DNA of 64,000 nucleotides from Sinohyriopsis cumingii (lineage: Eukaryota > Mollusca > Bivalvia > Unionida > Unionidae): contig CM068830.1 in assembly GCA_028554795.2 (NCBI GenBank), positions 114,899,214-114,963,213 of the forward strand, written 5' to 3'. The notes below the pieces were generated by a model, which had not been told where the DNA came from, did not search any database, and saw only the letters and a list, made by a program, of their open reading frames with translations. Made by a program: the position numbers and the translations under genes. Positions 2 to 49,406 of the stretch are shown one piece after another; within the stretch, counting starts at the first letter, position 1, and each line of letters begins with the position of its first letter.

Positions 2-508
2 GAGTGGCAATCGCCGTGCAGCCTCTTGCGAGAAAGTCAAGGCGATTCCATCGTGTTTGTGGAAGGCATTCCTAAAGAAGACGACGGCATCGTCTCTGAC
101 TCCCGTCAAACCCATTTGGTCATTTTCGACGACATGTTAGGAGAAGACGAAGAAGAAATTAAACTGTGGTTCACGCGCAAAGGGCATCACCGTAATGCCA
201 GTGTCGTTTACATCACCCAAAATTTGATTCAACAAAGTAAAGCCCATCACACCTTCAGTCTCAATGCGCATTACGTGGTCTTGTTTAAAAGCCCTCGAGA
301 TAAATCGCAAGTGCAAGTCTTAGCCAAACAGTTAGGAACGCCTTGGCTGACTCAGGCGTACGACGATGCCACACAAACGCAACACACTTATTTACTCGTT
401 GATTTGAAACCTACGACCCCCGAGGATTTGCGATTTCGTACCCACTTGTTTCACCACTGGTGCCAAGACGGAGGGCCTGTCCTGTACACGTCTCCGTCCT
501 CGACTTAA
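2..508 (+). CDS. Packaging ATPase, FtsK/HerA (A32-like) type, 3' part
   Basis: This is the C-terminal part of a Polinton/adintovirus genome-packaging ATPase, which pumps DNA into capsids. The frame is open from the first base, so the start and the Walker A loop lie left of the window. Visible signatures are a Walker B strand ending in two Asp (LVIFDD, bases 116-133), a segment GHHRNAS before a hydrophobic strand, and the sensor-like YITQN (209-223). The C-terminal block NAHYVVLFKSPRDK, followed by YLLVDLKPTTPEDLR, is characteristic of Polinton ATPases. The sequence shows no frame break. The next gene begins 69 bases after the stop. Family assignment is from recognised motifs; function is by family knowledge. 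Confidence 0.9.
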   Translation, partial: EWQSPCSLLRESQGDSIVFVEGIPKEDDGIVSDSRQTHLVIFDDMLGEDEEEIKLWFTRKGHHRNASVVYITQNLIQQSKAHHTFSLNAHYVVLFKSPRDKSQVQVLAKQLGTPWLTQAYDDATQTQHTYLLVDLKPTTPEDLRFRTHLFHHWCQDGGPVLYTSPSST

Positions 509-530
509 TTTCACTCCACATAAAAAAATC

Positions 531-538
531 TATAAAAA
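531..538 (+). promoter_or_regulatory. TATA box for the first pX-like gene
   Basis: TATAAAAA lies 39 bases before the ATG at 577 in the short gap after the ATPase stop. The spacing would put transcription start just upstream of the ATG. Similar boxes at 1521, 1965 and 5031 support a role. Confidence 0.5.
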
Positions 539-576
539 CCTCAGACCCTTTTTCGTCTGTCTCACACAGTGTGAAC

Positions 577-897
577 ATGACGTCCCTTCAGTCGCATCTT
601 CCCGTCAAATTGATTCGTGTCTTGTATGGCATCAGTAGAGAAAAAAATCCAGAAATACGAGCTCGTGTCTTAGAAGCTAGTCTCAAAGAAGCCTTACGAT
701 GGTTCACGGTGACGGCACGTCAAATACTCCAAGGAATCATTCAGATTCCTCATCAAACCAAACGCTTTTTCGATCGAAACAAAGTCGCTTTGGTCCAACT
801 GGCCGATCCCCGCATCGACACTCAAACCAAAAAACAAATCATTTTGAAACCTGGAGGGAGCGGTACTCTAGGAGGGTCATCATTCGCTCACTCTTAA
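577..897 (+). CDS. Small pX-like protein, first paralogue
   Basis: A 106-residue basic protein. Its ATG at 577 follows a TATA box and is preferred to an in-frame upstream start that lies inside the ATPase gene. Residues about 20-95 align by eye with the protein at 1655-1969: both have a helical start with Ser/Ala-x-Lys-Glu, a LxGxIxI/L turn, a Gln-Lys/Lys-Arg helix, and a KKxIL stretch before a Gly-rich end. The second copy has the hydrophobic C-terminus usual for this Polinton family, but this one ends quickly after a PGGSGTLGG stretch. Its original 3' end may therefore have been lost or shifted. Adenovirus pX/mu-like core proteins are the suggested relatives, and no function is shown. Confidence 0.7.
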   Translation: MTSLQSHLPVKLIRVLYGISREKNPEIRARVLEASLKEALRWFTVTARQILQGIIQIPHQTKRFFDRNKVALVQLADPRIDTQTKKQIILKPGGSGTLGGSSFAHS

Positions 898-1012
898 GAT
901 GGGATCCTAATGCCCCCAAAGTTATACCCAAGAAAAAAGCCCAACGAAGCTCCAAGAAGAAAAAGACCAGGTCCCCAAGAAGAACTTCTCCGGTGGCGGG
1001 ACCCTAATCTGA

Positions 1013-1525
1013 CCAGACACCACCCCGGAAAAAGAAAAGAAGCCCCCAGAAAAAGAAACAGAGAAAAGTCGCCAGAAAAAGAAAAGTCCACAGAAGAAAA
1101 CTAGTCGCAAGAGAGGCACTTCTTCTTCGGCCAGGACGCAACCTTACACTCGCAAACCACGACCTGCCACGGCGGTGACTACGTCTGCGGCAGCCTCACG
1201 TTCATCCACTTCTCCGTTGATGACACCAAGAACTGAAGAGTACTTGGAGACGCTGATCACACCAAGAACTTCTCCGTTGATGACCCCAAAAAGAACTTCC
1301 CCAGTGGCAGGACCCTCTAATTTAGTGGCAGTGGCTGCTGCTCACAAAGTACCTTCTCCCAAAATCAAAGTCCAAGAAAGATCGGGGATGTTACAAAGTT
1401 TACTGGGTTTGTCCAAGCAAGAACTGGCTCGATTTAGTCCGTTGCGTACCCCTGCACGACGTGTCATGCCTGTCCTCAAACTGATACGACGTAAAGACAA
1501 TCAGTGGCGACGCGTTCCAGTATAA
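1013..1525 (+). CDS. Basic Pro/Ser/Thr-rich reading frame, probably frame-disrupted
   Basis: This frame is open for 170 codons but has no ATG. The first part is very Lys/Arg-rich, the middle is Ser/Thr/Pro-rich, and the end is basic again, ending two bases into a TATAAA run. Two other frames are open and equally basic just upstream: one ends at 1007 and one runs 910-1104. Internal direct repeats occur (981-1005 with 1292-1316; 1208-1234 with 1267-1296), and the first pair sit in different frames. The likeliest reading is one core-type DNA-binding protein whose frame has been broken near 1005-1010, or a sequencing indel there. It is not recognised as a named family. Confidence 0.45.
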   Translation, partial: PDTTPEKEKKPPEKETEKSRQKKKSPQKKTSRKRGTSSSARTQPYTRKPRPATAVTTSAAASRSSTSPLMTPRTEEYLETLITPRTSPLMTPKRTSPVAGPSNLVAVAAAHKVPSPKIKVQERSGMLQSLLGLSKQELARFSPLRTPARRVMPVLKLIRRKDNQWRRVPV

Positions 1526-1530
1526 AAAAA
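1521..1530 (+). promoter_or_regulatory. TATA box overlapping the upstream stop codon
   Basis: TATAAAAAAA includes the TAA stop of the basic frame (1523-1525). It lies 63 bases before an ATG at 1584 and 134 bases before the pX-like start at 1655. Confidence 0.45.
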
Positions 1531-1654
1531 GGCGTGTGACCAAGTAGGGTATCAGTGTTTTTGGTGCTCCTGAAGACTCAAAGATGTCACCCTCCAGAAA
1601 ACCCCAAGGAAAGAAAAGGAAAGGACTGCCACCACGTTTAGTCAAACATGGGAC

Positions 1655-1969
1655 ATGTTATCTGTCCTGTCCAAAGCTTCTCCACCTCTACGAAAAAAAC
1701 TCATTCAATCGGCCTCCAAAGAGGTCATCGATACCGTGTGCGAATGTTGTTTGAACGTCTTGAAAGGCACGATCCCTTTGTCCAAACACCAGAAACAATG
1801 TTTAGGCAAACATCGTCACGTTCTTCGCCAAATGGTTCAAAAGAAAATCCCCCTTCGTCAAAAGAAGAAGATCTTGGTTCAACTTGAAGGAATTTTACCC
1901 ATCTTGTTAGGCCCGTTGCTGAAAGGAGTCTTGGGAACCATGTTGGGAGGACTGGTGGGAGCAAGATAA
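1655..1969 (+). CDS. Small pX-like protein, second paralogue, with hydrophobic Gly-rich C-terminus
   Basis: A 104-residue protein of a type nearly universal in Polintons and adintoviruses. It has a basic helical body (residues about 10-75) with LSKHQKQ and LRQKKKIL stretches, then a hydrophobic Gly/Leu tail (ILLGPLLKGVLGTMLGGL, about 84-101). The family is often compared with adenovirus core protein X; a role in packing DNA or in membrane contact is inferred only. ATG 1655 is chosen because homology begins close after it. A separate basic frame starts at ATG 1584 and overlaps this gene to 1754; its 24-codon head could be a lost N-terminal extension. The paralogue is at 577-897. Confidence 0.8.
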   Translation: MLSVLSKASPPLRKKLIQSASKEVIDTVCECCLNVLKGTIPLSKHQKQCLGKHRHVLRQMVQKKIPLRQKKKILVQLEGILPILLGPLLKGVLGTMLGGLVGAR

Positions 1970-1974
1970 AAAGG
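1965..1974 (+). promoter_or_regulatory. TATA-like box overlapping a stop codon
   Basis: GATAAAAAGG contains the TAA stop of the preceding gene (1967-1969) and lies 54 bases before the ATG at 2019. Confidence 0.4.
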
Positions 1975-2018
1975 CCCTCGGAAGTCCCAAGATCTCAGAA
2001 TCGACCCCTGACAACCCC

Positions 2019-2657
2019 ATGGAAGGACGAAAACTGGCTTTAGTGCCTTGCAAACGATGGATGGAATACCATCGGTGGCAAGAACAACGCACCCCGCATT
2101 TACCTCCCAATCCCAATTTGAGCGAGATGTCCCAGTTACAACACGAATTGCAGTCCTTGATGGATCGCCAAGATTTGTCCGAAACAGAAAAATCGCAAAA
2201 GTACGGTCAACTCTTGCAACGACTGCAACTCTTTCACCAGAAAGCCTCAGACGAAACAGCTCTTCCCACTCTAAAAGAGTTTAAGACCTTGATGAAAAGT
2301 GCAGCACCATCACCACTACCACCACCACCACCACTACCAGTGACCAAGACAGACAAAGGAGAAGAAGAAGAAGAAGAAGGGTTTCAAACTCCACCAGAAA
2401 AAGTACCCAAGTTAACAACACCACCTACCTCCAGAATTGGATGGATTAAAAAGATGATGGCCACCCCTTCTTCATCACAAGAGAAAAAGAAAGTGAAGAC
2501 AGAAGTGAAGACAGAAGTGAAACAAGAACCGATATCCCCCGCTCAGACATCCTCCTCTTCAATACCTATTGCCGGTCGCACACGCAAAGCATTGCAATCC
2601 AAGAAAATACCCCAAGAGAAAAAGAGTAGCATCCTCCAAGAGTGGGTGTCTTATTAA
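2019..2657 (+). CDS. Polinton ALVP-type protein with acidic and Lys-rich linker
   Basis: A 212-residue protein. The N-terminus, KLALVPCKRWMEY, matches the ALVPYxRY-type opening of a conserved but uncharacterised Polinton/adintovirus protein. Residues about 35-80 are helical and Gln/Leu-rich, a likely coiled coil. A poly-Pro run (about 98-105), an acidic run (EEEEEE, about 115-120), a Thr/Pro stretch and repeated VKTE units (about 160-168) follow. The C-terminus has GRTRKA and ends with a Trp-containing helix, as in relatives. The ATG follows a TATA-like box at 1965. It ends 20 bases before the integrase ATG. The function is unknown; it could be a core or scaffold protein. Confidence 0.75.
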   Translation: MEGRKLALVPCKRWMEYHRWQEQRTPHLPPNPNLSEMSQLQHELQSLMDRQDLSETEKSQKYGQLLQRLQLFHQKASDETALPTLKEFKTLMKSAAPSPLPPPPPLPVTKTDKGEEEEEEGFQTPPEKVPKLTTPPTSRIGWIKKMMATPSSSQEKKKVKTEVKTEVKQEPISPAQTSSSSIPIAGRTRKALQSKKIPQEKKSSILQEWVSY

Positions 2658-2677
2658 CACACCAACCAACACAAAAA

Positions 2678-3679
2678 ATGGAAAAAGTCTTATCCAGCAT
2701 TTACTACGATCCCTCCCATCCTGCAGGTTACGCAGGAGTTCAAAAATTGTATCGTGCTGCCAAAACTCGACTGAAAAGTCTCCGTTTACCTCAAGTGCAA
2801 CGATGGTTACAAGAACAAGCTACCTACACTTTACACAAACCCATTCGACGCAAGTTTGCCAGAAGTCGCACCCGAGTGGAAGGCATCGATCATCAATGGC
2901 AAGCCGATTTAGCCGATGTCTCTCATTTGGCCAGCTACAATCGTGGCTACAAATATTTGTTTTTTGTCATCGACGTCTTTTCCAAATTTGCCTGGGTCGT
3001 GCCCTTGACTTCCAAATCGAGCAGCGCGTTAGTGCAAGCCCTACAACGGGTGTTGAAACAAAACGGTCGTCACCCTCTTCGATGGCAAACGGACAAAGGT
3101 ACCGAATTTCTGAACCAAGCTTTCCAAAAAGAATTAAAGAAACGTGACATTCATTTTTTTACCACCGAGAATCCCGAAACCAAATCCAGCATCGTGGAAC
3201 GTTTTCAACGCACTTTGAAAGAACGCATGTGGAAATATTTTACGCATCACCACACTCTGAAGTACATCGACATCTTACCGCACCTGGTGCAAGCGTACAA
3301 CCAATCTTACCATCGAAGCATCGGACGTGCCCCGCAAAACGTGACTCCCGAGAACGAAGTGCTGGTGTTTGAGCGTCTGTTTGGTACGTCCCGGACGAGG
3401 GCTGTCCCCAAGAAAAGTGGAATGTTGGCCGTAGGAGATTGGGTGCGCATTGGCAAAACCAAACGCACTTTCGACAAAGGTTACTTACCTAACTGGACGA
3501 CCGAATTGTTTCGCGTCACTGGACGAGTGCATGGCCGTCATCCTGCCGTCTATAAATTGGAAGACATGAACGGAGAAGTGCTCAAAAGGAACGTTTTATT
3601 TGCCCGAGTTACAACGTGTCACCAAAAAAGAAGACGACGTGTACGACATCGAAAGCATTCTCGAACGCAGAACCCGTAA
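2678..3679 (+). CDS. Retroviral-type DDE integrase, catalytic part
   Basis: This integrase inserts the element into host DNA. ATG 2678 is the first ATG after the preceding stop; an in-frame GTG at 2642 overlaps that gene. The rve core is clear. The first Asp is in WQADLAD (about residue 77), the second in WQTDKGTEF (139), and the Glu is in SSIVERF (174), with spacing close to DD35E. VIDVFSKFAWVVPL and YNQSYHRSIGRAPQ are typical of Polinton integrases. The SH3-like part (GDWVRI; FRVTGR; VYKLEDMNGE) follows at about 255-300. After about residue 306 the frame runs into unrelated basic sequence, because the chromodomain continues in another frame from 3600. Catalytic residues are intact. Confidence 0.92.
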   Translation: MEKVLSSIYYDPSHPAGYAGVQKLYRAAKTRLKSLRLPQVQRWLQEQATYTLHKPIRRKFARSRTRVEGIDHQWQADLADVSHLASYNRGYKYLFFVIDVFSKFAWVVPLTSKSSSALVQALQRVLKQNGRHPLRWQTDKGTEFLNQAFQKELKKRDIHFFTTENPETKSSIVERFQRTLKERMWKYFTHHHTLKYIDILPHLVQAYNQSYHRSIGRAPQNVTPENEVLVFERLFGTSRTRAVPKKSGMLAVGDWVRIGKTKRTFDKGYLPNWTTELFRVTGRVHGRHPAVYKLEDMNGEVLKRNVLFARVTTCHQKRRRRVRHRKHSRTQNP

Positions 3680-3788
3680 AGTGGGCAAACGACGTGTCAA
3701 AGAAGTCAAAGTACGTTGGAAAGGATATCCACCCAGTTTTGATTCTTGGATCGACGCTTCGCAAGTGATCGACTATAAAAAGAAGTGA
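3600..3788 (+). pseudogene. Chromodomain tail of the integrase, in a shifted frame
   Basis: This frame encodes a chromodomain: VYDIESILERR, then VKVRWKGY and SFDSWI, the usual signature (residues about 18-55). In Polintons this domain is fused to the integrase C-terminus and targets histone marks. Here it is in a frame different from 2678-3679, with both open between 3600 and 3679. Joining them requires a +1 (or -2) change near 3593-3600, within a T-rich run. This may be a mutation, a sequencing indel, or less likely a ribosomal shift site. It has no ATG of its own at its start. Confidence 0.8.
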
Positions 3789-3790
3789 CC

Positions 3791-4174
3791 ATGACCACTC
3801 CTTCACCTAGTTCTTCTGTGCAAGATTTACAAAAACAACCCTTGTGGGTGTGGTGCGGAGAACGTGTGCCTAAAACGCAAATCGTCTTTTTCTGCCAAAT
3901 CTTCGTGGTGTATTGTGTCATCGGGGCAGCCATTGCCAATTTGAGTTTGCAACAAGGAGACAAACAATTGTGGACCATTTTATTGAGCAGTTGCATCGGT
4001 TACCTGCTTCCTAATCCCTCCCTGAAATTCTCCTCGAACGGGAACCCCGGGAACCTTGTGTCCAGTGCCATTGCCATTCACCACTCCAATAACAACCAGA
4101 ACCCCATTTTAGGCGGAGACACGCCTCTGACGTCCAGTAACCCCTCGGACAGCCACAGAACTCTGGAATTATGA
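3791..4174 (+). CDS. Polinton two-span membrane protein
   Basis: A 127-residue protein with two hydrophobic segments: IVFFCQIFVVYCVIGAAIA (about residues 31-49) and LWTILLSSCIGYLLP (about 61-75). The sequence around them (RVPKTQIVFF; LLSSCIGYLLPNPSLK) matches a small membrane protein conserved in Polintons and adintoviruses. The Asn/Ser-rich tail is predicted soluble. The ATG at 3791 is chosen over an in-frame GTG at 3785. The stop overlaps the next start by four bases (ATGA, 4171-4174), showing tight coupling to the capsid gene. A role in virion membranes or release is inferred only. Confidence 0.8.
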   Translation: MTTPSPSSSVQDLQKQPLWVWCGERVPKTQIVFFCQIFVVYCVIGAAIANLSLQQGDKQLWTILLSSCIGYLLPNPSLKFSSNGNPGNLVSSAIAIHHSNNNQNPILGGDTPLTSSNPSDSHRTLEL

Positions 4175-4578
4175 GTCACCAAAACCAATTTTACTTAACC
4201 TTACCTAGTGACAGTTCCATTGAGGTGTTTCCCCACAACACGTTGTGCTGTTACACGGCCAAATTACCTCAGGCCATCCCCTTAGATCACGAAGCCCATT
4301 GGGAAGTGGCTTTGGTAGAAATGATTCACCCAACACAAATCAAAAACATCACTGAAACTCAAAACACTTTTGACGTCGAAATTTTGGACCCAGCACTGCA
4401 GCAAACCATGACGGGCAGTCCTCAACATAACTCACATCTTGCAAAGGAGCTATTACCCCGCAGCAGTGACTCTTCTCCTCCTCTTTTCGTTTATCGCTTT
4501 AAGGCCATTATTTTAGTGGTCAACATCTGGTGGAGGCCATCGCTGACAAATTCTATGGAACCTTTGACAAAGTTCTGA
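4171..4578 (+). pseudogene. Penton/minor capsid protein, N-terminal fragment
   Basis: The start, FYLTLPSDSSIEVFPHNT, followed by LCCYTAKLPQAI and HWEVALVEM, is the hallmark opening of the Polinton penton-type minor capsid protein (single jelly roll, capsid vertices). The family pattern holds to about residue 75. The frame then loses resemblance and stops at 4578. A family-like stretch (HLVEAIADKFYGTF, 4524-4565) is in another frame, so at least one frame change lies near 4400-4524. The C-terminal half is at 4612-5124. The four-base overlap with the gene before is intact. An A8 run at 4586-4593 is a likely site of indels or sequencing error. Confidence 0.82.
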
Positions 4579-4611
4579 CCACAGCAAAAAAAACGTGTCA
4601 CCATCGAGTAA

Positions 4612-5124
4612 CACAAACTGTCTCACCGTCTACTCATCAAATTTCAAAGTGAGGAAAAAAGTATACGTATTAAATTTTGCCCTGGATTGTATGACATTTT
4701 GGGTGGAGACCTCAATATGATCACGGATAAGCAGACCAAAAAAATTATTAAAATGGCAGAGATTGACAACGACATGCATTTTGCAAGGTATTTTCGTTTC
4801 CCGGTAGAACTGAACCAAGGACTGAATTTGATATTCGTGTACTCCGATGTGGTGGAGTACAAAGTGGTGGGACACACCTCTGTGCCGTTACTGCGTGTCA
4901 TTCCTTTCAAAGTAAATTCTGCCACGGTCACTGACGAGGAAGGTGGAAACACTTACCACGTCCACCGCGAATTTGTCCATCCTCACTATTTGCCTGTCAG
5001 CAAGTCTTATTTGGACACGGTCAACATTGCTATAAAAGGAGATTTGGGACAAAATATTCCATTCACCAAAGGAAAAGTCACGGTGAAACTCCATTTCCGA
5101 AAACGGTTTTCTCACGACTCGTAA
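4612..5124 (+). pseudogene. Penton/minor capsid protein, C-terminal fragment
   Basis: This is the second half of the penton-type capsid gene. It is open from just after a TAA at 4609-4611 and has no ATG near its start. Family landmarks are IRIKFCPGLYDILGG, LIFVYSDVVEYKVVGH, VPLLRVIPF, HPHYLPVS and the ending IPFTKGKVTVKLHFRKRF. It is in the same register as the N-terminal fragment, but two stops and a piece in another frame lie between. It ends three bases before the next ATG. A TATAAAAGG within it at 5031 may serve the next gene. Either this copy of the element cannot make a full penton, or the assembly has indels here. Confidence 0.82.
5031..5039 (+). promoter_or_regulatory. TATA box inside the penton 3' end
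   Basis: TATAAAAGG lies 97 bases before the ATG at 5128. It is the best TATA match in this stretch, and the position fits a promoter for the pVI/pX-like gene, perhaps also for the capsid gene. Confidence 0.4.
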
Positions 5125-5127
5125 GTC

Positions 5128-5544
5128 ATGTATCCAGTGTACCAAGGGGTTGCACGACGGCGAGGACACGGTTTAGGAGATATGTTAAAATCGGCCTTTC
5201 GTTCGGTGGCCCCGGTGTTGAAACCGAAGGTGACACGCGGATTGCACGCCTTGAAAGATGCGGCACTGACACAAGGCAAAGAATTTCTCCAAAATGTCAT
5301 CATCGACAAACAAAACCCTAAAGAAGCCTTCATGAGGGCAGGCAAAAATGTCTTGCTGCAAACGGGCAAAGACATTTTGGGTCGCCGAGACACACACATA
5401 AATGCCCTGCACGCTACCGAATCAGACATTCAGCAAGGACAAGGCAGAAAGAGACGAAGAAGAAAACACCCTTTCACCAGACTTCAAGCTAGAAAGGCCA
5501 AGAAAAGAAGAACCGTTCGAGACTTAGACATTTTCGATTATTGA
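5128..5544 (+). CDS. pVI/pX-like basic capsid-interior protein
   Basis: A 138-residue basic protein beginning YPVYQGVARRRGHGLGDML, matching the conserved opening (VYxG, then R-G-H-G-x-G) of a Polinton/adintovirus protein encoded next to the major capsid gene. An amphipathic helix (LKSAFRSVAPVLKP, residues about 20-33) follows. The C-terminal third is strongly basic (GRKRRRRKH; KAKKRRTVRD). By position and composition it resembles adenovirus pVI or core proteins, which are cut by the viral protease. The start and stop are tightly packed between penton (3 bases before) and capsid (18 bases after). The role is inferred from family and context. Confidence 0.75.
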   Translation: MYPVYQGVARRRGHGLGDMLKSAFRSVAPVLKPKVTRGLHALKDAALTQGKEFLQNVIIDKQNPKEAFMRAGKNVLLQTGKDILGRRDTHINALHATESDIQQGQGRKRRRRKHPFTRLQARKAKKRRTVRDLDIFDY

Positions 5545-5562
5545 GAAAGAACAGAACAAAAA

Positions 5563-6873
5563 ATGATGCACCGAGAGTCTTGCGCCTGTTCCAAGACGGA
5601 ACTGGATCTGTTTGCCATGCCCCCCACCATGATGACCATGCAAGAATCCGAATGGGTGGAATTTCACCCCGTTTCCTCATTGGCCGCTTCTGCTCCCATC
5701 GAGTTTGAAATCAAGGGACAACCCGAAGATTACATCGATCTGAATAGCAGTTACTTGTACTTGAAAGTCCAAGTTCTAGATAAGGATGGTAATGGAGTAG
5801 AAGACACTGAGAATATAGCTCCCGTCAACAATTTCATGCATTCCTTGTTCAGCTCAATGGACTTGTACTTGAATAACAAACTAATCAGCAGCAGCATGGA
5901 TACATACCCTTACCGTGCCTACCTGGAAAATCTCTTGACGTACGGAATAGATGCCAAGGATACTCATCTCAATGCTTGCGTGCTGTGGGAACCTGACGAA
6001 GCGGGCAAGTTCGACCTTGTAGATGGAAACAATAGCGGCTTTGAGGAAAGAGAAAGCAAAATCTTAGATAAGAGGAGTTTAGAACTGATGGATCGTTTGC
6101 ATTTGGACATGTGGTTGCAAGAGAAATATTTGCTGAACGGGGTCAATGTCCGCTTGAGACTGAATCGTAGCAGTGTCGCTTTCCATTTGATGGCTGATGG
6201 TGATGCTATTAAGAATGGCAATCCTAAAAGCAAAATCGTGGAGGCCAAACCCTACGTACGACGCGTGGAAGTGTTACCTAAAGTGGGTAACGACATCAGT
6301 CAGACGTTGAGCAGAACGACCGCCAAGTATCCCATACGACGCGTGGAAGTGAAAACGTTCACCATTCCCGTTGGACATCATTCCATGATCGAAGATCATC
6401 TGTTCCAAGGACAGTTACCCAAACGTTTAATCCTTGGTATGGTCGAGAATGAAGCCTTCAACGGAGTCTTCCCTAAAAATCCTTTCAACTTTCAACACTT
6501 CAAGGTGAAGAAAATCGAAGTCAGTCGCGATGGCAAGACCTTGTGTACCCGACCTTTCGAACCTGACTTTGCCAAGAACAATTACTTGAGATCGTACTTG
6601 TCCCTGTACGAAGCCACCGGACAATTAGGAACCAACACCAGTCACGGGATTACGTACGACGATTGCGCAGGAGGCTATGCTTTGTGGGCTTTCGATTTCA
6701 CTCCAGACCAAGGCAGCGACGAGGGACATTTCCACCCTATAAAATCTGGCCAGATTCGTGTGGAACTTCAGTTTACAGAACAACTGAAACAGACAGTGAA
6801 CGTCATCCTGTATGCAGAATTCGATAATACCATGGAAATTAACAGTTTGAGAGAAGTCATTCTAGATTACTAG
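5563..6873 (+). CDS. Major capsid protein, double jelly roll (hexon-like)
   Basis: A 436-residue intact capsid protein of Polinton/adintovirus type, forming pseudo-hexameric capsomers. Conserved landmarks in order: SELxDLF-like opening with MPPTMM (about residues 14-27), EWVEFHPVSSL, APIEFEIKG, DYIDLNSSYLYLKVQV (about 58-73), NFMHSLFSSMDLYLNNKLIS, DTYPYRAYLENLLTYG, LLNGVNVRLRLNRSS, KYPIRRVEVKTFTIP, LPKRLILGMV and FNPFNFQHF-like segments, ending with YAEFDNTMEIN. The length fits the family. Two adjacent ATGs (5563, 5566) are possible starts. No frame break occurs, unlike penton and integrase. The stop is five bases before the next ATG. A TATAAAA at 6738-6744 inside the gene could serve the following genes. 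Confidence 0.95.
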   Translation: MMHRESCACSKTELDLFAMPPTMMTMQESEWVEFHPVSSLAASAPIEFEIKGQPEDYIDLNSSYLYLKVQVLDKDGNGVEDTENIAPVNNFMHSLFSSMDLYLNNKLISSSMDTYPYRAYLENLLTYGIDAKDTHLNACVLWEPDEAGKFDLVDGNNSGFEERESKILDKRSLELMDRLHLDMWLQEKYLLNGVNVRLRLNRSSVAFHLMADGDAIKNGNPKSKIVEAKPYVRRVEVLPKVGNDISQTLSRTTAKYPIRRVEVKTFTIPVGHHSMIEDHLFQGQLPKRLILGMVENEAFNGVFPKNPFNFQHFKVKKIEVSRDGKTLCTRPFEPDFAKNNYLRSYLSLYEATGQLGTNTSHGITYDDCAGGYALWAFDFTPDQGSDEGHFHPIKSGQIRVELQFTEQLKQTVNVILYAEFDNTMEINSLREVILDY

Positions 6874-6878
6874 AAGCC

Positions 6879-7382
6879 ATGGAAGACTGTTATCCCTCTT
6901 TACCTAGTGGAGAAACTTTAGAGATGGAATGTGAGGAGACCGTGGAAGAAGAATCCCAAGACAAAGACGAAGAAGATATCATGATGAAGTCAAGATGGCC
7001 AGAACAAGAAGCCCATTTAGTCTGCTGTTTTGCCAAACACTTGGTCGAAAAAATGACGGAATTGATCAAGAAAAATTGCTATGGATGTCAAAACGATCAT
7101 CCCAGTCAAATTCAACACGATAAATGCCTGATGTTGAGTCAAGAAGAAAAATTGGACGAATATCTGGACGAAGCTTGGAGTCTCATCTCGGACGAAGACG
7201 TGTTACATCAGTGGTATAAAGACTTGCGTGAACATTCGTGTCCACCATTAACCACTCAAGAGATCCATCGTATCGAAGCTCTCCTGAATCAAAGTGAGGA
7301 GACGAAACAAAGAAACGGTTATTTGTCAGACATTTTCAAGCAAAAAGTCAGGATCGAATTGACGACTTATTATTACCTGTGA
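6879..7382 (+). CDS. Polinton Cys/His protein of unknown function
   Basis: A 167-residue protein. The N-terminal 35 residues are acidic. The centre has KKNCYGCQNDHPSQIQHDKC (residues about 64-83), a Cys/His cluster typical of a small protein found in many Polintons and adintoviruses, probably metal binding. The remainder is helical and ends in a Tyr run. Its ATG is five bases after the capsid stop and its stop is 13 bases before the protease ATG, so it belongs to the capsid-protease block. No enzymatic motif is seen. The family's function is not known to me. Confidence 0.75.
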   Translation: MEDCYPSLPSGETLEMECEETVEEESQDKDEEDIMMKSRWPEQEAHLVCCFAKHLVEKMTELIKKNCYGCQNDHPSQIQHDKCLMLSQEEKLDEYLDEAWSLISDEDVLHQWYKDLREHSCPPLTTQEIHRIEALLNQSEETKQRNGYLSDIFKQKVRIELTTYYYL

Positions 7383-7395
7383 AGAAGAAAAAAAC

Positions 7396-7956
7396 ATGGA
7401 TACCTGGGAACTTTATTACCTTTTGAACCACAGTTCGTATACGGCTTCTTGGAATCCTGTCGTCTGTGCTAAAGATGAACTCCCTCATCGCAAACCTAAA
7501 GACCATCAAGCTTACGTCATCAACACGGACGACAGTCATCTCCCAGGAACCCACTGGGTAGCCGTCTACTTTCCTCAAGAAGGATGTGTGGAATATTTCG
7601 ATTCGTACGGATTACCCCCTTTGGAAGACGATATTATTGACTTTATGAGAAGAAATGCTCAGACCACCCGATTCAATAATGTGAAATTACAAGGCACAGA
7701 TTCCTTGGTGTGTGGACAGTATTGTGTGTATTTTCTGCATCATCGCAGCCTGGGCTATTCCTTAGAACATTTAGTGACTCATTTTGATCCTCGTCATTCT
7801 TCTAGAAACGATGTGAAAGTAGATCGATGGTTCTGTGACCATTATGCTTATCTTTTGTCTCAAGCTAGGAAACGTAGTGTCCATCAATGGCCTAATGATT
7901 TCCAACAGTGGAAATCACAATTTCATTCACAACGTTGTCAGCCCTGTTTAAAGTAG
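7396..7956 (+). CDS. Adenain-like cysteine protease (maturation protease)
   Basis: A 186-residue protease of the adenovirus/Ulp1 (C5/C48) group that cleaves capsid and core precursors. The catalytic His is in GTHWVAVYF (residue 53), the acidic residue in EYFDSYGLP (Asp69), the oxyanion Gln is Gln99, and the nucleophile Cys is in LVCGQYC (Cys106). Gln and Cys are seven apart, as in adenain. The Ulp1-like PxGxxCG order is replaced by the Polinton form QGTDSLVCGQYC. Length is normal and the frame intact. It is the last gene of the morphogenesis block; a poly(A) signal follows at 8069. Confidence 0.93.
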   Translation: MDTWELYYLLNHSSYTASWNPVVCAKDELPHRKPKDHQAYVINTDDSHLPGTHWVAVYFPQEGCVEYFDSYGLPPLEDDIIDFMRRNAQTTRFNNVKLQGTDSLVCGQYCVYFLHHRSLGYSLEHLVTHFDPRHSSRNDVKVDRWFCDHYAYLLSQARKRSVHQWPNDFQQWKSQFHSQRCQPCLK

Positions 7957-8202
7957 AGTGTGAATTGAAAAAAAATGTTTGTGATTTGAAGAAAAAATGT
8001 TTGATGTTATCATGTTGGATTATTGTTAAAAAATGTTAGAGTTGTTGTTTAGTGTTCAGTGATTATTGAATAAAAAATGTTGTGTTTTGAAAAAAAATGC
8101 CTTTGTCTTTTGTTTAGCTATAAGAATGTTGGATTCATGCTCTTTGACTTCTTACTATCCCTCTCATGTCACTCACTGAACGTTGCGGCTCGAAAACGGT
8201 GT
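7957..8202 (+). other. Gap after the protease with A-run/ATGTT repeats
   Basis: About 250 bases without a gene. It holds five or more irregular copies of an A-run followed by ATGTT (for example near 7968, 7993, 8027, 8072 and 8090). Confidence 0.5.
8069..8074 (+). terminator. Poly(A) signal after the morphogenesis genes
   Basis: AATAAA lies 113 bases after the protease stop. It is the only canonical signal noticed between the protease and the accessory genes, and would end the morphogenesis transcripts. Confidence 0.4.
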
Positions 8203-8245
8203 GGGGGATGTTTTCCTTCACGTCTGCGCTTTGAATTTAAGAACC
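8203..8245 (+). promoter_or_regulatory. Accessory promoter module, copy 1
   Basis: GGGGGATGTTTTCCTTCACG, then TCTGCGCTTTGAATTTAAGAACC. The same module precedes each of the three accessory ORFs and a decayed relative on the other strand (53,071-53,111). The ATG at 8296 is about 50 bases downstream. The TATA position is degenerate here (TTTAAG). Confidence 0.7.
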
Positions 8246-8295: not shown

Positions 8296-8661
8296 ATGTG
8301 CTCCAAACTAGCTAAGCTCAACGAAGCCTACGTGAATTTGCATAGGGTCAGACACAGTCTGATACCGAAGCCAGAAGAAATAGAGAATGTGAGAATGTTA
8401 AAAGTCACTGAAGACCTGATAGAAGAGATCTTCAGAGAAGAAGTGAACAGGGAAAAAGAAGAATGGACAGAGAAGTACAGACTTCAGAGACAGCAGCAAC
8501 AGCAGCAACAACAACAACAAGAACAGCAGCAACAACCTGAACCTGACAGAGGCTTTGTCGATTGTCGTATCGACACCAAAGAGTTCTTCTTCTCTTTCCG
8601 AAGAAGCAGACCTATCGCCAGAAAGTCTATCCTCAGAGGACATCGCATTCTTAGAAACTAA
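8296..8661 (+). CDS. Accessory ORF 1, helical head with poly-Gln
   Basis: A 121-residue protein, not recognised. The ATG is the first after the promoter module; an upstream in-frame extension from 8077 crosses that module and is not favoured. The N-terminus (SKLAKLNEAYVNLHRVRHSL) resembles that of ORF 2 (RLAKLLELHVHLEYARRIL), so they look like paralogues. Residues about 30-60 are charged and helical. A Gln-rich run follows (QQQ..., about 67-82), mostly CAG/CAA, prone to expansion. The end is basic (RRSRPIARKSILRGHR). A stem-loop lies about 40 bases past the stop. A regulatory or DNA/RNA-binding role is a guess. Confidence 0.6.
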   Translation: MCSKLAKLNEAYVNLHRVRHSLIPKPEEIENVRMLKVTEDLIEEIFREEVNREKEEWTEKYRLQRQQQQQQQQQQEQQQQPEPDRGFVDCRIDTKEFFFSFRRSRPIARKSILRGHRILRN

Positions 8662-8701
8662 AAAAAGATTGCCATAGCAAACAAAAAAAAACAAAACAAA
8701 A

Positions 8702-8740
8702 AGGCCTTTTCAGGGCTACCCCAATACTCTAGAAAAGAAA
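8702..8740 (+). terminator. Histone-type 3' stem-loop and downstream element, copy 1 (decayed)
   Basis: AGGCCTTTTCAGGGCT (8702-8717) has a TTTC loop and a six-base stem with one G-G mismatch. It is followed by ACCCC, and 13 bases on by the purine run AGAAAAGAAA (8731-8740). The order (stem-loop, ACCCA-like tail, purine-rich element) is that of animal histone mRNA 3' ends. It lies 40 bases after the ORF 1 stop. Confidence 0.6.
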
Positions 8741-8744
8741 TAAC

Positions 8745-9062
8745 TATCAATTTGCCAATGTGTGTAGGTAGAATAGTGTGAATATAAACACTGAATCTTT
8801 TTTAAAAAAATGTGAGGGTATGTGTTTGTGTGTTTGTGTGTTTGTGTTTGTAAGTGCTCACGTAAGTTGGTGTGGATAGTAGATTAAAATGATGTCTTTT
8901 TTGGTGTTTGAGGTGTGGGGAGAGTAGATTTGGGGGTTTGATTGTATTGCTTTGCGTATGTGAATAGTCTATTGAAGTGATTAATGAAAAAAAATTTTTA
9001 GAATAGTGATGGGTAGTATAAAAAAGTGAGTGAGTGTTTCTTTTAGGTCCGCGCGATGTTGT
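8745..9062 (+). repeat. GT-rich accessory spacer, copy 1
   Basis: A gene-free spacer with a TGTGTTTG tract (8820-8852) followed by a motif ACGTAAGTTGGTGTGGATAG (8861-8880). The 8745-8790 part repeats at 9620-9680. The GTGTGGATAGTAGAT motif reappears, reverse-complemented, as the core of the tandem array at 53.2-54.95 kb. Confidence 0.55.
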
Positions 9063-9144
9063 TTTTGGTCATGATCTAGGTAAGATCAATTTTATGTTTT
9101 TTAGGGGGATGTTTTCCTTCACGTCCGCACTTTCACTATAAATT
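9063..9144 (+). promoter_or_regulatory. Accessory promoter module, copy 2, with upstream ATCTAGGTAAGATC block
   Basis: A 35-base block containing GGTCATGATCTAGGTAAGAT (9067-9086) leads into GGGGGATGTTTTCCTTCACG (9104-9123) and TATAAATT (9137-9144). ATG 9195 lies 50 bases beyond. The same two-part arrangement precedes ORF 3, so the block is a duplicated control region. Confidence 0.7.
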
Positions 9145-9194
9145 GAAACTCGTTCGGCAGTCTAGCTACCCTTGTTGATTGACCAACACCAAAA

Positions 9195-9647
9195 ATGAAC
9201 ACGAGACTGGCAAAACTGTTGGAACTTCATGTGCATCTGGAATATGCCAGGCGCATACTAAATGAACTGGCCGCGGAAGCCATTGTGGAAGAGGGAAGGA
9301 TAAGAGAGGAGGAGGAAAGAAGAAACAAAGAAGAGGAGGAGAGAAGATACAAAGAAGAGGAGGAGGAGAGAAGAAACAAAGAAGAGGAGGAGGAAAAGGA
9401 GAGAAGAAGAAGAAATTTCAGAATCCCAGAAACCGAAAATTGGGATTCTGAAGCCACATATCCTGCATCTGCTCTCTCCCCCAAAAAAGTAAAAAGTAAC
9501 TGGGAACAAGATGTGTATGTGGCGCCAGGCCTGGAAGGTGCCACCATTAACCAGGTGTCCATGAAGTTAAAAAAAAACAGCCCTTTTCAGGGCTACACAA
9601 TACTCAAGAAAAGAAATAACTATAAATTTGCCAATGTGTATAGGTAG
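9195..9647 (+). CDS. Accessory ORF 2, Glu/Arg-rich coiled coil
   Basis: A 150-residue predicted protein, unrecognised. The head (residues 1-35) resembles ORF 1. Residues about 36-72 are repeats of E-E-R-R-x-K-E-E, a long charged helix. The rest (about 75-120) is mixed. The last 28 codons read through a sequence that is untranslated in ORF 1: they cross the histone-type hairpin (9579-9594). The natural stop has probably been lost by an indel in the A9 run at 9569-9577, since stops lie just upstream in the +1 frame. Biological function is unknown. It is flanked by its own promoter module and 3' element. Confidence 0.6.
   Translation: MNTRLAKLLELHVHLEYARRILNELAAEAIVEEGRIREEEERRNKEEEERRYKEEEEERRNKEEEEEKERRRRNFRIPETENWDSEATYPASALSPKKVKSNWEQDVYVAPGLEGATINQVSMKLKKNSPFQGYTILKKRNNYKFANVYR
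9579..9616 (+). terminator. Histone-type 3' stem-loop and downstream element, copy 2 (perfect stem)
   Basis: AGCCCTTTTCAGGGCT (9579-9594): perfect six-base stem, TTTC loop. ACACA follows, then CAAGAAAAGAAA (9605-9616) after ten bases, very close to the histone downstream element CAAGAAAGA that pairs with U7 snRNA. It lies inside the open frame of ORF 2 as read now. Confidence 0.75.
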
Positions 9648-9809
9648 AGTAGTGTGAATATAAACACTAACTCTTTATTAATAGTGCGAGTGTTTGTGTT
9701 TGTGTTTGTAACTGCTCAAGTAAAGTTTGTGTGAATAGTAGTTTCTTTATTGTTTCTTAGCGTATGTGGAGAGTATAGTTTGGGTTTTATTATATGAAAT
9801 GAGAAAAAT
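9648..9809 (+). repeat. GT-rich accessory spacer, copy 2
   Basis: A second copy of the spacer after ORF 1, with GTGTTTGTGTTTGTGTTTGT (9689-9708) and GTGTGAATAGTAG (9729-9741). No gene seen. Confidence 0.5.
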
Positions 9810-9920
9810 GGGGGATGTTTTCCTTCACGTCCGCGCGTTGTTTGGTCATGATCTAGGTAAGATCAATTTTATGTTTTAGGGGGATGTTTTCCTTCACGTA
9901 CGCGCTTTAAGTATAAGAAC
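9810..9920 (+). promoter_or_regulatory. Accessory promoter module, copies 3 and 4, upstream of ORF 3
   Basis: Two GGGGGATGTTTTCCTTCACG modules (9810-9829 and 9879-9898) flank the same GGTCATGATCTAGGTAAGAT block (9844-9863). TATAAG at 9912-9917 lies about 40 bases before ATG 9958. The double module is the most complete form of this control region. Confidence 0.7.
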
Positions 9921-9957
9921 CCACAGTATTCGTCGTTCAAACCATTCTACAGAGAAG

Positions 9958-10338
9958 ATGGCTTCGAACCACCTCGATAAATTTCAAAGATTGCAAGACG
10001 TCCTTGACAATTTGGGCATGATAGAACAAATGCTAGTACGACTCAATGAAGACCACTATTCTTATAGTCCGCATAGAGTAAAAATGGAGATTAACAACTT
10101 AAGAAAAGCAAAGGACATGATAAGTGGTGTGATGAAGGAAATAAAGGAGGAGAAGGAGGGTGAAGAGGAAAGGATAAGAATAAGAAAATGGAATGAAAAA
10201 ATTGAAAAAGAAGAAGAAAATGAGAAGAGGAAGAAAGAAGAGGAGGAGGAAGAGAAGAAAGAAGAGGAGGAGAAAAAAAAGAAGAGAAAGAGTGTAGGTG
10301 AGAAAATAAGAAGTTGGTGGAGAAAAAGAAGAAATTAG
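9958..10338 (+). CDS. Accessory ORF 3, Lys/Glu-rich coiled coil with basic Trp tail
   Basis: A 126-residue protein, not recognised. Residues 1-60 form a helical head (FQRLQDVLDNLGMIEQML), about 60-108 a Lys/Glu-rich helix, and the end is basic with two Trp (KIRSWWRKRRN). The same ending (VRRWWTNW) occurs in a decayed relative on the minus strand at 52.57 kb. The ATG lies about 40 bases after a TATAAG box. It stops 28 bases before a perfect histone-type hairpin. Composition (over half charged residues) hints at nucleic-acid or chromatin contact but shows no fold. Confidence 0.65.
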   Translation: MASNHLDKFQRLQDVLDNLGMIEQMLVRLNEDHYSYSPHRVKMEINNLRKAKDMISGVMKEIKEEKEGEEERIRIRKWNEKIEKEEENEKRKKEEEEEEKKEEEEKKKKRKSVGEKIRSWWRKRRN

Positions 10339-10366
10339 AAGCAGAAGAAGAAGAAGAAAAACAAAA

Positions 10367-10404
10367 GGCCCTTTTCAGGGCCACGCATATTTCTCGAAAA
10401 GAGA
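10367..10404 (+). terminator. Histone-type 3' stem-loop and downstream element, copy 3 (canonical)
   Basis: GGCCCTTTTCAGGGCC (10367-10382) fits the metazoan histone hairpin pattern GGYYCTTYTNARRRCC at every position, preceded by ACAAAA and followed by ACGCA. The purine run CGAAAAGAGA (10395-10404) starts 12 bases on. Confidence 0.8.
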
Positions 10405-10430
10405 ATGACTTTTCAATTGCCTACCCCTTT

Positions 10431-10480
10431 TTTAAATTTAAATTTAAATTTAAATTTAAAAAAAAATTTTAAAAAAAAAT
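10431..10480 (+). repeat. (TTTAAA)n palindromic AT block
   Basis: Five near-perfect TTTAAA units followed by A and T runs, self-complementary, between the last accessory gene and the terminal tandem repeat. Confidence 0.7.
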
Positions 10481-10487
10481 CCCATGT

Positions 10488-10716
10488 TCAATTCCCACTA
10501 TTCCTCATGTTAATTTCCCTTGTCGCTAGACAGACCCACGATTTATTCCCATGTTAAATTTCCCTTGTACGTAAAGTGACCCACGATTTATTCCCATGTT
10601 AATTCCCATTGTACGTAATCTAACCCACGATTTTTCGCCATGTTAAATTTCCATTGTACGTAATCTAACCCAGGGGTCTCTGTAATGCTAATTTCCATTG
10701 TACGTAAAGTGCCCCA
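10488..10716 (+). repeat. 45-base tandem repeat at the right end of the element
   Basis: About five units of 44-45 bases with CCCACGATTTATTCCCATGT and TTCCCTTGTACGTAA; unit starts near 10535, 10580, 10624, 10669 and 10712. A related CCATTGTCCCTAA repeat follows the decayed accessory copy at 52.1-52.45 kb (minus strand). The repeat may therefore belong to the element's end rather than to the host. No terminal inverted repeat can be tested, because the left end is outside the window. Confidence 0.65.
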
Positions 10717-11580
10717 CTTCACTACTGATATGCCAATGATCGTAGATTTTGTAATTTCCGCATACCATCAAATTGAAAACCCATATATCAATATTCCTTC
10801 TACAGGAACAATGATTCCACTTTTCATAGCCACAATTTTAAGTGTATCCAAAAGTAAACTACACCACCTATATATATCGATCGCAGTGCGTGATTCCCGT
10901 GCGTCAGGAGTATTAAAATCACTTCTCCGCCAAACTAACAAAAAAAAGCTTCAGCCATTCCTACTCTAGGCTGGAGACGGACAACACCTAGAGCAGTGCG
11001 AGTTGTGAAGAGCACTGGTCTTTCACCGAGTGATTGAATATAATTTGGAAAATGTATACCCTTCGAGTCTGGTAAGGAATAATTAGTTTTTCTTTGATAA
11101 AATTATAAATGCCGGTGGGTGGGTTGTATACTGTTTATTGTATTTGTGTCGGTTATATTCTGTATTGTATTTGTCTGGTATTCTAAGTATGCGTTTTGTA
11201 TTGTTTGAGGTGTACCTCGTACCATTAATAAATCCCACAATGGACGAGCTAGTCTTATTATTTCAACCCGAAATGAATGAAAGCAATAAAAACCTATATA
11301 GGTAGTATATTGGGCCAAGTCATGATTACGAACTATCTTGATTCCTATGTACTATTCATACCTCAAGTATGTAAACTTGTTATCAAAAAACAATTTGAAT
11401 GTATTTAAAAATACATATGTAATAGTAAGAGCTATACTTCGGTAAATAGACAAATAAAGGCTTTCAATTTCTACTGTATCCATTTGATGTTGCCTAAATG
11501 TGAAAATCAGCTGTTTACTGAAAATTCATTGACTATCTACTTCTTGTCAAAGTAAACGGTTATTTACCTACCAAATCCCT

Positions 11581-38921: not shown

Positions 38922-39035
38922 GACGGTCAAATCGTTGAGGTTGCTGGCTTTGACATCTGATAAATTGCTATAATTCTGGGATACGAACAGCACGGATAAT
39001 TAACAGGATAAAATAGATGTAGTTAACTCATTCAC

Positions 39036-39326
39036 CTTTCACATAAAGCTTTGGTTTGCTGGATTCAACTGCTTCTCTTGGATCTACGTTATAAGCACGG
39101 CAATATACAACCTGGTCATGATGTTCATTACAGGCCATGAAAGTAAAGTTCTGACTGGTGCTAGAGATCTTCATTTGTGGCCCTATGTACCATTCTACAA
39201 TTGGTTCTGGTCGACTAATTCCATGAATACACGTTAGGCGCATGATTTCACCAGATGTCACGATCAAAGTGGATCGGTTTAACACGGGCTGGCTATTAAC
39301 TTCAAGATTTACCTTTGTTACCGGGA
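39036..39326 (-). CDS. Exon: Ig domain, paralogous to the exon at 49.1 kb
   Basis: A 291-base exon, phase 1-1, between TTTACTTGACAG and G/GTGAAT (39030-39035). Ig landmarks: MRLTCIHGISRPEPIVEWYI (first Cys to core Trp) and DQVVYCRAYNVDPREAVE (second Cys). It closes SSKPKLYVKG. The exon has the same length as 49,116-49,406, and more than half of the residues match by eye from strand C to the end. The two are therefore products of exon duplication. Confidence 0.88.
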
Positions 39327-40499
39327 CTGTCAAGTAAATAAACAAAGGGAACATGTTAGGATTTACGTTTGGATTTAGGTGTTTCATACAAACGATATAA
39401 TAACGTTAACTTACAAACCAGAGTTTTGCCATAACGTATAGGTTGTAGAGATACAAACATCAATAAATCATTCTGAAAAAATGTGGAAACTATATACATT
39501 TTCTGAGAAAGAAAACCATTGTGTTCACAACCTTTAGAAATATCTATTAATTATAAATAAGACATTTGTTCCTCACTTCCCGCTGAATTTATATGCTGAT
39601 TGATTCAGGCGAAATAATATACCCCGATTGTGTGTTTAATAACAAAAGTTTAGGAATAATACAAATAGGTAAAACCACTCTCAGAAGGATTGTATGCATA
39701 TAAGAACAACCATTAACTAAAAGCTAATATCAGGAACAGAGCTTCTAGCAAGAACCGCTAAGACAAAAGGTGTATGGGAGAATAATTAATAGAGTGTATA
39801 GTCCAATCAATAATATTATTAATATTATTAATCGTGTTATATTTTACCCTGAGGAACGAAGAGCTGCATGTTCAAAACAGTTGACGCTTGGTCAAGAATA
39901 TGATATATGGTCGTGAATATATAGTAATTAATTTTTGTGTATTTCATAGATGATGGGGCTTTTCAATGCTCTGTTTTGTCACAAGCAAATCAAATATATT
40001 AGTAATAATAGCTTAATTATATAAACATCAACTTTAAGTAATTTGGATGTGGCATTCTATAATCACAAACGGCAGTATTACCAATGTCGGTTAAGCCAAA
40101 GGGATGAATTACACCTTGGGCCGTCTGGAATGTAACATACTGGTGGATCAGGTGGTCATGCAAATATGCTCATCCTCCGACTGTGAAGACAGACGGCATG
40201 ATATGTGTGGAAAGCACAGTACATTAGTTCAGGTAGAGTAGAAACTGACGGCCATCAACGGCATCCGCAGTGTATCCAAACATCTTGTCATTATCATGCC
40301 AGTGTATTTAGAAAGGTTAGGATAAGAGAGCCATGGCGACTCTGCGTAACCGAACTTCACGTATATCCAACTCACACGCAAGTTGTGGCACTATTCCAGT
40401 TCCAGCGCATACTTTTTCAAATCCTATGATGATGGGCGAGAGGTGACGTGAGAGGGGATATAAAAGTTGCCAAAACACGTAATGCTTTACCTTTGCCAT
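39327..40499 (-). other. Intron, proximal part
   Basis: AT-rich; nothing recognised before the LINE relic at 40.5 kb. Confidence 0.45.
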
Positions 40500-49115: not shown

Positions 49116-49406
49116 CTCTGACATAGAGCATAGGCTTCTCCGATTCTACTGCCTTATTTGAATCAACGTTGTGAGCTCTGCAGTAAATCCTCTTATCATG
49201 ATCCGTTTCCTTAGGGTCAAAGGTAAATGTCTGACTGGTTCCAGAGTTCCTCTGCTCGTACCCTATGAACCATTCTATGGTAGGATCAGGTCGACTGCTT
49301 CCGGTGAAACAGTTCAAAGTTACTGGTTTTCCATAAGTAACATTCAGGAGAAATGTGTCATACAAATGTTGTAAGTCATGTTGTAGTCGAACGTGGGAGA
49401 CTCCAA
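49116..49406 (-). CDS. Exon: Ig domain, paralogous to the exon at 39.0 kb
   Basis: A 291-base exon, phase 1-1, between GTCAATTAG and G/GTAGTT (49110-49115). Ig landmarks: VTLNCFTGSSRPDPTIEWFI (first Cys to Trp) and DKRIYCRAHNVDSNKAVE (second Cys). It closes SEKPMLYVRG. Length, phase and sequence match the exon at 39,036-39,326. Confidence 0.88.

Follow-up and report, generated by a model that had tools for sequence, protein, structure and literature searches.

Histone-type 3′ signals and promoter motifs at the accessory genes of a Polinton in the bivalve Sinohyriopsis cumingii

In animals, to our knowledge, messenger RNAs (mRNAs) that lack a poly(A) tail and carry the histone stem-loop are almost confined to replication-dependent histone genes. 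The pathway that handles them, built on stem-loop-binding protein (SLBP) and U7 RNA, ties histone mRNA production and translation to S phase. A stretch of 64,000 nucleotides (nt) from the bivalve Sinohyriopsis cumingii (GenBank assembly GCA_028554795.2, contig CM068830.1; referred to here as the window) raises the question of why small genes that encode no histones, carried by what we take to be a Polinton, should end in hairpins of this type. From the sequences themselves, from conservation between copies of the element in this one genome, and from likeness to the histone genes of the host, we consider it highly probable that the accessory genes of this Polinton are expressed like replication-dependent histone genes.

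Stem-loops of the accessory genes and of the host histone genes

The original prediction placed hairpins at window positions 8702, 9579, and 10367, each behind one of three small genes, and we found them on the + strand at 8702 to 8717, 9579 to 9594, and 10367 to 10382. Accessory gene 1 (8296 to 8661, +) encodes a glutamine-rich protein of 121 amino acids without a Pfam match above cut-off, accessory gene 2 is an open frame at 9195 to 9647 (+), and accessory gene 3 (open frame at 9958 to 10338, +) encodes a charged, repetitive protein of 126 amino acids. Stem-loops 2 and 3 have the perfect 6-bp stems and TTTC loops that had been described for them; the stem of stem-loop 1 is imperfect. Against the histone stem-loop family RF00032, whose gathering cut-off is 34 bits, stem-loop 3 alone passed (36.8 bits over 10362 to 10407), whereas stem-loops 2 (30.7 bits over 9574 to 9619) and 1 (18.6 bits over 8698 to 8741), scored with relaxed thresholds, fell short; the expected family membership thus held at threshold for the third hairpin and not for the other two. 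Stem-loop 3 was also the sole gathering-level match of the window to any of 4,227 Rfam families, and its expectation value (E = 4.2e-07) rules out a chance origin of the hairpins. A search of the window for the stem pattern with up to three mismatches gave 8 matches (hairpin 3 being counted twice, once per strand) versus 2.24 expected, a number reached by none of 100 shuffles. Each hairpin is followed by the purine run that had been noted for it: the GAAAAGA core of the histone downstream element is read in the sequence at 8732 to 8738, 9608 to 9614, and 10396 to 10402 (all +), with GAAAAG starting 14, 13, and 13 nt past the end of the stem for genes 1, 2, and 3, respectively.

The histone genes of the host are arranged in tandem, with a repeat unit of about 8.3 kb (at least 150 PF00125 matches listed; 662 candidates). 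In the one unit examined (locus L074), RF00032 stem-loops of 35.0 to 39.4 bits stand at the ends of H2B, H2A, H1, H3, and H4 alike, so that the host's own histones rely on this stem-loop. GAAAAG lies 13 to 14 nt after the stem in four of these five genes by script and 13 nt after it in H4 as read by eye, the script having stopped at an earlier A run in that gene. The purine core of the element is that of the host's own histone genes. For bivalve histone mRNAs, a published account reports purine-rich elements near the palindrome in only some (PMC6210712). The distance from stop codon to stem is about 15 to 40 nt in intact element genes versus 27 to 38 nt in host histone genes, with larger or missing values reflecting damaged frames or the choice of another frame by the script. 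Homology to host histone genes beyond the purine element is slight (2 of 300 shuffles in the best comparison; a level of 15 of 300 or lower in 3 of 30), such that capture of a whole histone 3′ region by the Polinton is unsupported. A histone gene inside the element is ruled out, since neither genes 1 to 3 nor the left-end genes A and B have a histone match in Pfam.

The window does not reach the left end of the element, which was read from locus L075 (G000:C7:114889400-114891900). Genes A and B, two divergent genes at this end, likewise end in a hairpin, and the hairpin in the left inverted repeat is the fourth of the window element, beyond the window itself. On their inner sides the two inverted repeats are each bounded by a hairpin, that of gene A on the left and that of gene 3 on the right. 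The right terminal inverted repeat occupies about 362 bp at 10364 to 10726 (unstranded), and its partner begins at G000:C7:114890336 in L075. The last 60 nt of the repeats, comprising the purine element and the stem-loop, are identical at both ends of the element, and the similarity stops at the base of the stem. Within the right repeat, five 44- to 45-bp repeats (beginning AATTTCCCTTGTACGTAA) at 10512 to 10717 adjoin a tract of A and T only. In another copy, L016, CCHC zinc-knuckle and polymerase-like frames are found on the outer side of gene A, at the position expected for the inverted repeat, and this locus looks rearranged.

Conservation of the 3′ signal among copies in the genome

All comparisons of copies were made within the same genome. 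Eight of 96 listed copies were chosen by their capsid gene, regardless of hairpin, and their right ends were examined. The hairpins that the original prediction expected in related elements were present in these copies: of 24 accessory-gene ends at which a hairpin was expected, 23 matched RF00032 (E up to 0.0078), the missing site being gene 3 of L090, whose end may exceed the sequence examined. All stem pairs at the 23 sites were standard (one T-G), and the loop was TTTC at 22 and TTTA at 1. Compensatory change, also anticipated, was present but slight, with an outer stem pair of A-T (A-U in RNA) at 16 sites and G-C at 7. GAAAAG followed the stem after 13 nt at 19 sites, 14 nt at 3, and 12 nt at 1. 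A second set of 61 sites comprised hairpin-chosen loci, L075, and the window, with AAAAAG counted as a core too; the core stood 13 nt after the stem at 57 of these and 14 nt after it at 1, and none was found at 3. Nonstandard stem pairs in this set were A-C (2), G-G (1), and A-G (1).

Across the eight capsid-chosen copies (seven for gene 3), pairwise identity of the stem-loop was 0.984 for gene 1, 0.984 for gene 2, and 1.000 for gene 3, and that of the 7-nt window over the purine core was 1.000 for all three genes. The corresponding values for the 120 nt upstream were 0.833, 0.793, and 0.618, and those for the spacer between stem and core were 0.917, 0.948, and 0.890. The gene 3 site holds clearly different proteins in different copies (window 9958 to 10338, L017, L088, L090, L092, and L097). 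Because the protein at this site varies (starting with MASNQ, MPAAS, or MDVEY, for example) while promoter and 3′ signal are constant, the arrangement points to an expression cassette that stays fixed while its content can be exchanged.

A search of the genome with RF00032 returned 589,472 first-look candidates, of which 75, the best candidates only, were scored; all 75 exceeded the cut-off, and the 30 loci taken from them are biased to strong hairpins. These 30 hairpin-chosen loci, judged to be Polinton accessory genes by their flanking frames or letters, scored 43.5 to 45.6 bits at the chosen site, exceeding all five host histone genes. The exact stem-loop followed by GAAAAGA occurred at 17,097 places in the genome and the reversed control at 0. 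Although gaps of 6 to 20 nt were allowed, the gap was 11 nt at the first 100 or so of these places. The same exact pattern matched none of the five genes of the histone unit examined.

Promoter motifs, polyadenylation signals, and candidate U7 RNAs

Genes 1 to 3 carry the motif GATGTTTTCCTTCACGTCCGCGC, or a one-base variant of it, directly before a TTTAA or TATAA box. By sequence match, 22 of 23 bases agree before gene 1 (8207 to 8229, followed by TTTAA), before gene 2 (9108 to 9130, followed by TATAA), and at the proximal copy before gene 3 (9883 to 9905, followed by TATAA), all on the + strand. A distal copy before gene 3 (9814 to 9836, +), used as reference, agrees with host H2B at 22 of 23 bases and with host H1 at 21 of 23. 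Within the host histone unit, the matches to the motif are H2B (22/23; L074 8241, where the sequence next to the match agrees with that preceding the H2B frame), H1 (21/23), and H2A in reverse orientation (18/23), and the best match in a simulated control of 500 sequences of equal length and dinucleotide make-up was 17/23. Before gene 2, a 19-nt stretch (9037 to 9055, +) is identical to part of the host histone H4 promoter (L074 7411 to 7429), and a 37-nt repeat (9064 to 9100, +) is identical to positions 9841 to 9877 before gene 3.

Among the top 30 listed capsid-chosen copies, the window copy included, 29 have the gene 1 motif at 22/23 or better, L059 being the single copy without it; in the set of eight, the motif pattern precedes gene 2 in 7 copies and gene 3 in 8. 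At four-fold degenerate sites of the capsid gene the median difference is 11.7% (435 pairs, 30 copies), a rate at which 23 bases free of constraint should show about 2.7 changes per pair. The genome contains 6,754 exact copies of the host-type form of the motif, GATGTTTTCMATCACGTCCGC, and none of its reversed control. Four of these places, taken from near the top of the list, were sampled; the frames of all four resemble those of Polinton right ends, and the stem pattern detected a hairpin in three of them.

The motif core ACGTCCGC resembles the site of HINFP, and a transcription factor of the HINFP type may act at the motif. HINFP links histone H4 genes to NPAT. Action of HiNF-P at H4 promoters has been described (PMC5706932). 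Judged from the sequence, the shared promoter motif lends support to a possible coupling of the accessory genes to S phase.

The capsid and protease module was predicted to use an ordinary polyadenylation signal. AATAAA is indeed read at 8069 to 8074 (+) behind this module, and the contrast with the accessory genes is kept in the other copies: in every capsid-chosen copy with a located gene 1 motif (29 of 29; L059 dropped), AATAAA precedes that motif by 125 to 140 nt. At 18 of the 23 capsid-chosen hairpin sites, no AATAAA was found within 150 nt after the hairpin. In the other set, 5 of 61 sites have an AATAAA within this distance, as does H4 among the five host histone genes.

A U7-like pattern was found at 17 places in the genome versus 5 for the control. 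Nine of the 17 were examined, and three of these (L077 to L079) have an Sm-like site and then a hairpin. In a test that is partly circular, the three downstream elements of the window paired with the 5′ end of L078 at −9.8 to −10.3 kcal/mol, with 1 to 2 of 100 shuffles as good; host histone genes paired with it, in the same partly circular test, at −7.3 to −11.2 kcal/mol, with 0 to 2 of 100 shuffles as good for three genes. Other element sites reached 5 of 100 shuffles or fewer in 42 of 58 cases, again with partial circularity. A separate Rfam U7 match in the genome, L076 (29.3 bits, E = 0.27), was rejected because it is without a convincing Sm site.

Expression of the accessory genes and the element that carries them

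These observations suggest a scheme in which host RNA polymerase II would start genes 1 to 3 at promoters with the H2B/H1-type motif. Host SLBP, whose presence is suggested by the stem-loops of the host's own histone genes, and the U7 small nuclear ribonucleoprotein (snRNP) would bind the stem-loop and GAAAAGA, and cleavage between the two would leave short mRNAs that have neither introns nor a poly(A) tail. From what is known of this pathway, production and translation of such accessory mRNAs would be concentrated in S phase. The capsid module would end at its ordinary, conserved poly(A) signal, which would keep a replication-linked accessory set apart from the structural (capsid) set. Genes A and B would rely on the same histone-type 3′ signal, downstream of a divergent promoter that lacks the motif. 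The outermost 3′ signals are built into both inverted repeats. Cleavage, tail-free ends, S-phase timing, the HINFP-type factor, and a benefit to the element are the parts of this scheme that we infer.

On this view the mechanism would be a familiar one and its carrier of a new type. The wider proposal, on which we are evenly divided, is that a whole Polinton lineage adopted the host histone programme at both ends of its genes, flanking accessory proteins that can be interchanged with the promoter motif on one side and the SLBP/U7 3′ signal on the other; with 17,097 copies of the exact 3′ signal in the genome, the element may even join or compete for the histone locus machinery in S phase. If true, the use of both histone signals for non-histone genes would give virus-like elements a new means of linking their expression to replication of the host genome. 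Such transcripts would then escape RNA sequencing that selects for poly(A), and Polinton activity may be underestimated.

Several observations weigh against histone-like expression of these genes. In the window copy, stem-loop 1 has a G/G mismatch and the gene 2 frame passes through hairpin 2, so that the predicted order of gene and then hairpin stands for genes 1 and 3 and fails for gene 2; for both reasons we regard the window copy as partly decayed. In seven of the eight capsid-chosen copies, gene 2 ends 26 to 31 nt before its hairpin. RF00032 scores lie under the cut-off at 17 of the 23 capsid-chosen sites and at or above it at 6. L015 is without the purine element, and the gene 2 stem is damaged in L017 and L033 (2 of 12 hairpin-chosen right-end loci), whose hairpins were missed by the stem pattern and thus stand outside the count of 61. 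Identity downstream of the core is also high for genes 1 (0.907) and 2 (0.915), indicating that constraint there exceeds the signal itself; for gene 3 it is 0.610. The copies share descent, and their conservation is not the same as independent evolution. At five of the 23 sites AATAAA is present, each time 64 nt after the stem, which makes a fallback poly(A) site possible in some copies. With respect to U7, only L077 among L077 to L079 matches RF00066, at 17.9 bits versus a cut-off of 34; the search pattern held the complement of GAAAAGA, and pairing with the candidates is to that extent circular. Host H2B and H4 paired with L078 no better than 10 and 11 of 100 shuffles, respectively, and 16 of the 58 other element sites no better than 5 of 100. 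The gene B hairpin in L075 (at about 2300) breaks off after the loop and a different sequence follows, a sign of rearrangement. Finally, the 23-nt promoter motif is absent from genes A and B.

This last point also favors an alternative that shares the 3′ part of our explanation, so that the confidences expressed here overlap and do not sum to one. Histone-type 3′ processing could operate without S-phase coupling, the benefit lying either in mRNAs that are compact and lack a tail or in expression in eggs and early embryos, which are rich in the machinery for histone mRNAs. The support for coupling is limited to signals in cis, and genes A and B are without the promoter motif; the motif of genes 1 to 3, however, argues for joint transcriptional control with histone genes, and we regard uncoupled processing as unlikely.

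Considerably less probable is that the signals are relics, a Polinton ancestor having captured histone-gene flanks that then spread passively, with accessory mRNAs polyadenylated elsewhere. An exact 19-nt stretch and a near-exact 23-nt stretch are common to the element and host histone promoters, and thousands of copies share descent, both as relics would predict. Yet stem-loop and purine core are kept at 98 to 100% while the upstream letters drift, in three different gene-end contexts, and the motif is constant in spite of the divergence at capsid silent sites given above. Moreover, the 18 sites without AATAAA offer no such signal nearby, and outside the motifs themselves the resemblance to host histone genes is slight.

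Two further readings are very improbable. One is a virus-type 3′ hairpin signal of the element's own, independent of SLBP and U7. Polintons are distant kin of virophages, and mimivirus and its virophages have hairpins at gene ends, so that hairpins close the genes of related mobile viruses in both cases. Those hairpins signal polyadenylated ends, though, and are not known to have the histone letters or purine element, whereas loop, stem, flanks, purine element, and spacing in the Polinton fit the animal histone model and the host histone genes, and genes 1 to 3 have histone-type promoter motifs as well. The other is that the hairpin belongs to the inverted repeat and acts chiefly at the DNA level, in replication or integration. 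This accords with the outer hairpins, which form the inner edge of the 362-bp repeats and are themselves identical at both ends, but leaves aside the hairpins of genes 1, 2, and B, which lie outside the repeats, on the sense strand, shortly after the stop codon of intact genes.

The accessory genes resemble replication-dependent histone genes (RF00032, SLBP/U7) in stem-loop, loop, flanks, purine element, spacing, and short distance from stop codon to stem, as well as in their uninterrupted short open frames and a TATA-type promoter with the motif of host H2B and H1. They differ in encoding no histones by Pfam and in that the signal sits in a mobile element with thousands of copies, two of its signals lying in inverted repeats. 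The original prediction knew of no description of such an arrangement in Polintons. For gene control, too, we found no account beyond PMC12220804 of histone-type control in Polintons or adintoviruses, in a full-text search of mostly open-access papers. For the hairpins themselves the statement needs amending, as section 16 of PMC12220804 counts six histone 3′ untranslated region stem-loops in a collection of Polinton-like viruses (PLVs) and virophages; that section gives the count only, without discussion of genes, downstream elements, promoters, or function. In the same section, tRNAs and group I introns are all that is reported from 1,107 cryptophyte PLVs (PMC12220804). Histone-like proteins of some animal viruses, as named in PMC11071296, are a separate matter. 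Thirteen IMG/VR contigs returned by the stem pattern were taken as chance matches, none reaching the RF00032 cut-off.

The element as a whole measures 19,604 bp (G000:C7:114890336-114909939, combining L075 and the window), with its right end at window position 10726. Its left and right terminal inverted repeats align over 362 bp, and the target duplication GATATG flanks both sides (10727 to 10732 in the window; the second copy lies left of the element in L075). Open frames spanning 134 to 7956 include a Polinton integrase (rve; 2678 to 3679, +; PF00665, 4.5e-15; retroviral integrase chains in PDB, 3.5e-10), a presumed major capsid protein inferred from position and size (5563 to 6873, +), and a weakly matching, presumed adenovirus-like protease (Peptidase_C5; 7396 to 7956, +; PF00770 at 16.3 bits, below the cut-off of 21.3). 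The integrase, the inverted repeats, the 6-bp target duplication, and the size of about 20 kb are features of Polinton/Maverick elements and adintoviruses, and the weakly matching protease would be another. The presumed capsid protein had no convincing relative in a PDB sequence search (best E = 0.82), and its single-sequence structure model was unusable (pLDDT, the predicted local distance difference test, 34), such that the fold gives no identification. For the protein-primed DNA polymerase B of Polintons, a candidate N-terminal frame in L024 had no Pfam match; the polymerase part of the window copy should lie between L075 and the window. IMG/VR searches with the capsid and integrase proteins returned no relatives.

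A search of the 2.9-Gb genome (1,138 contigs) with the capsid protein listed at least 96 copies, from 28,410 first-look candidates, and an internal stop was present in 9 of the 96 listed. Given these numbers, a very large and possibly recent Polinton burst has taken place in this genome. Elsewhere in the window, immunoglobulin-like open frames on the − strand, one above the Pfam cut-off (49105 to 49434; C2-set_2 and Ig_2) and one below it (39028 to 39387), are perhaps exons of a host gene beside the Polinton insertion.

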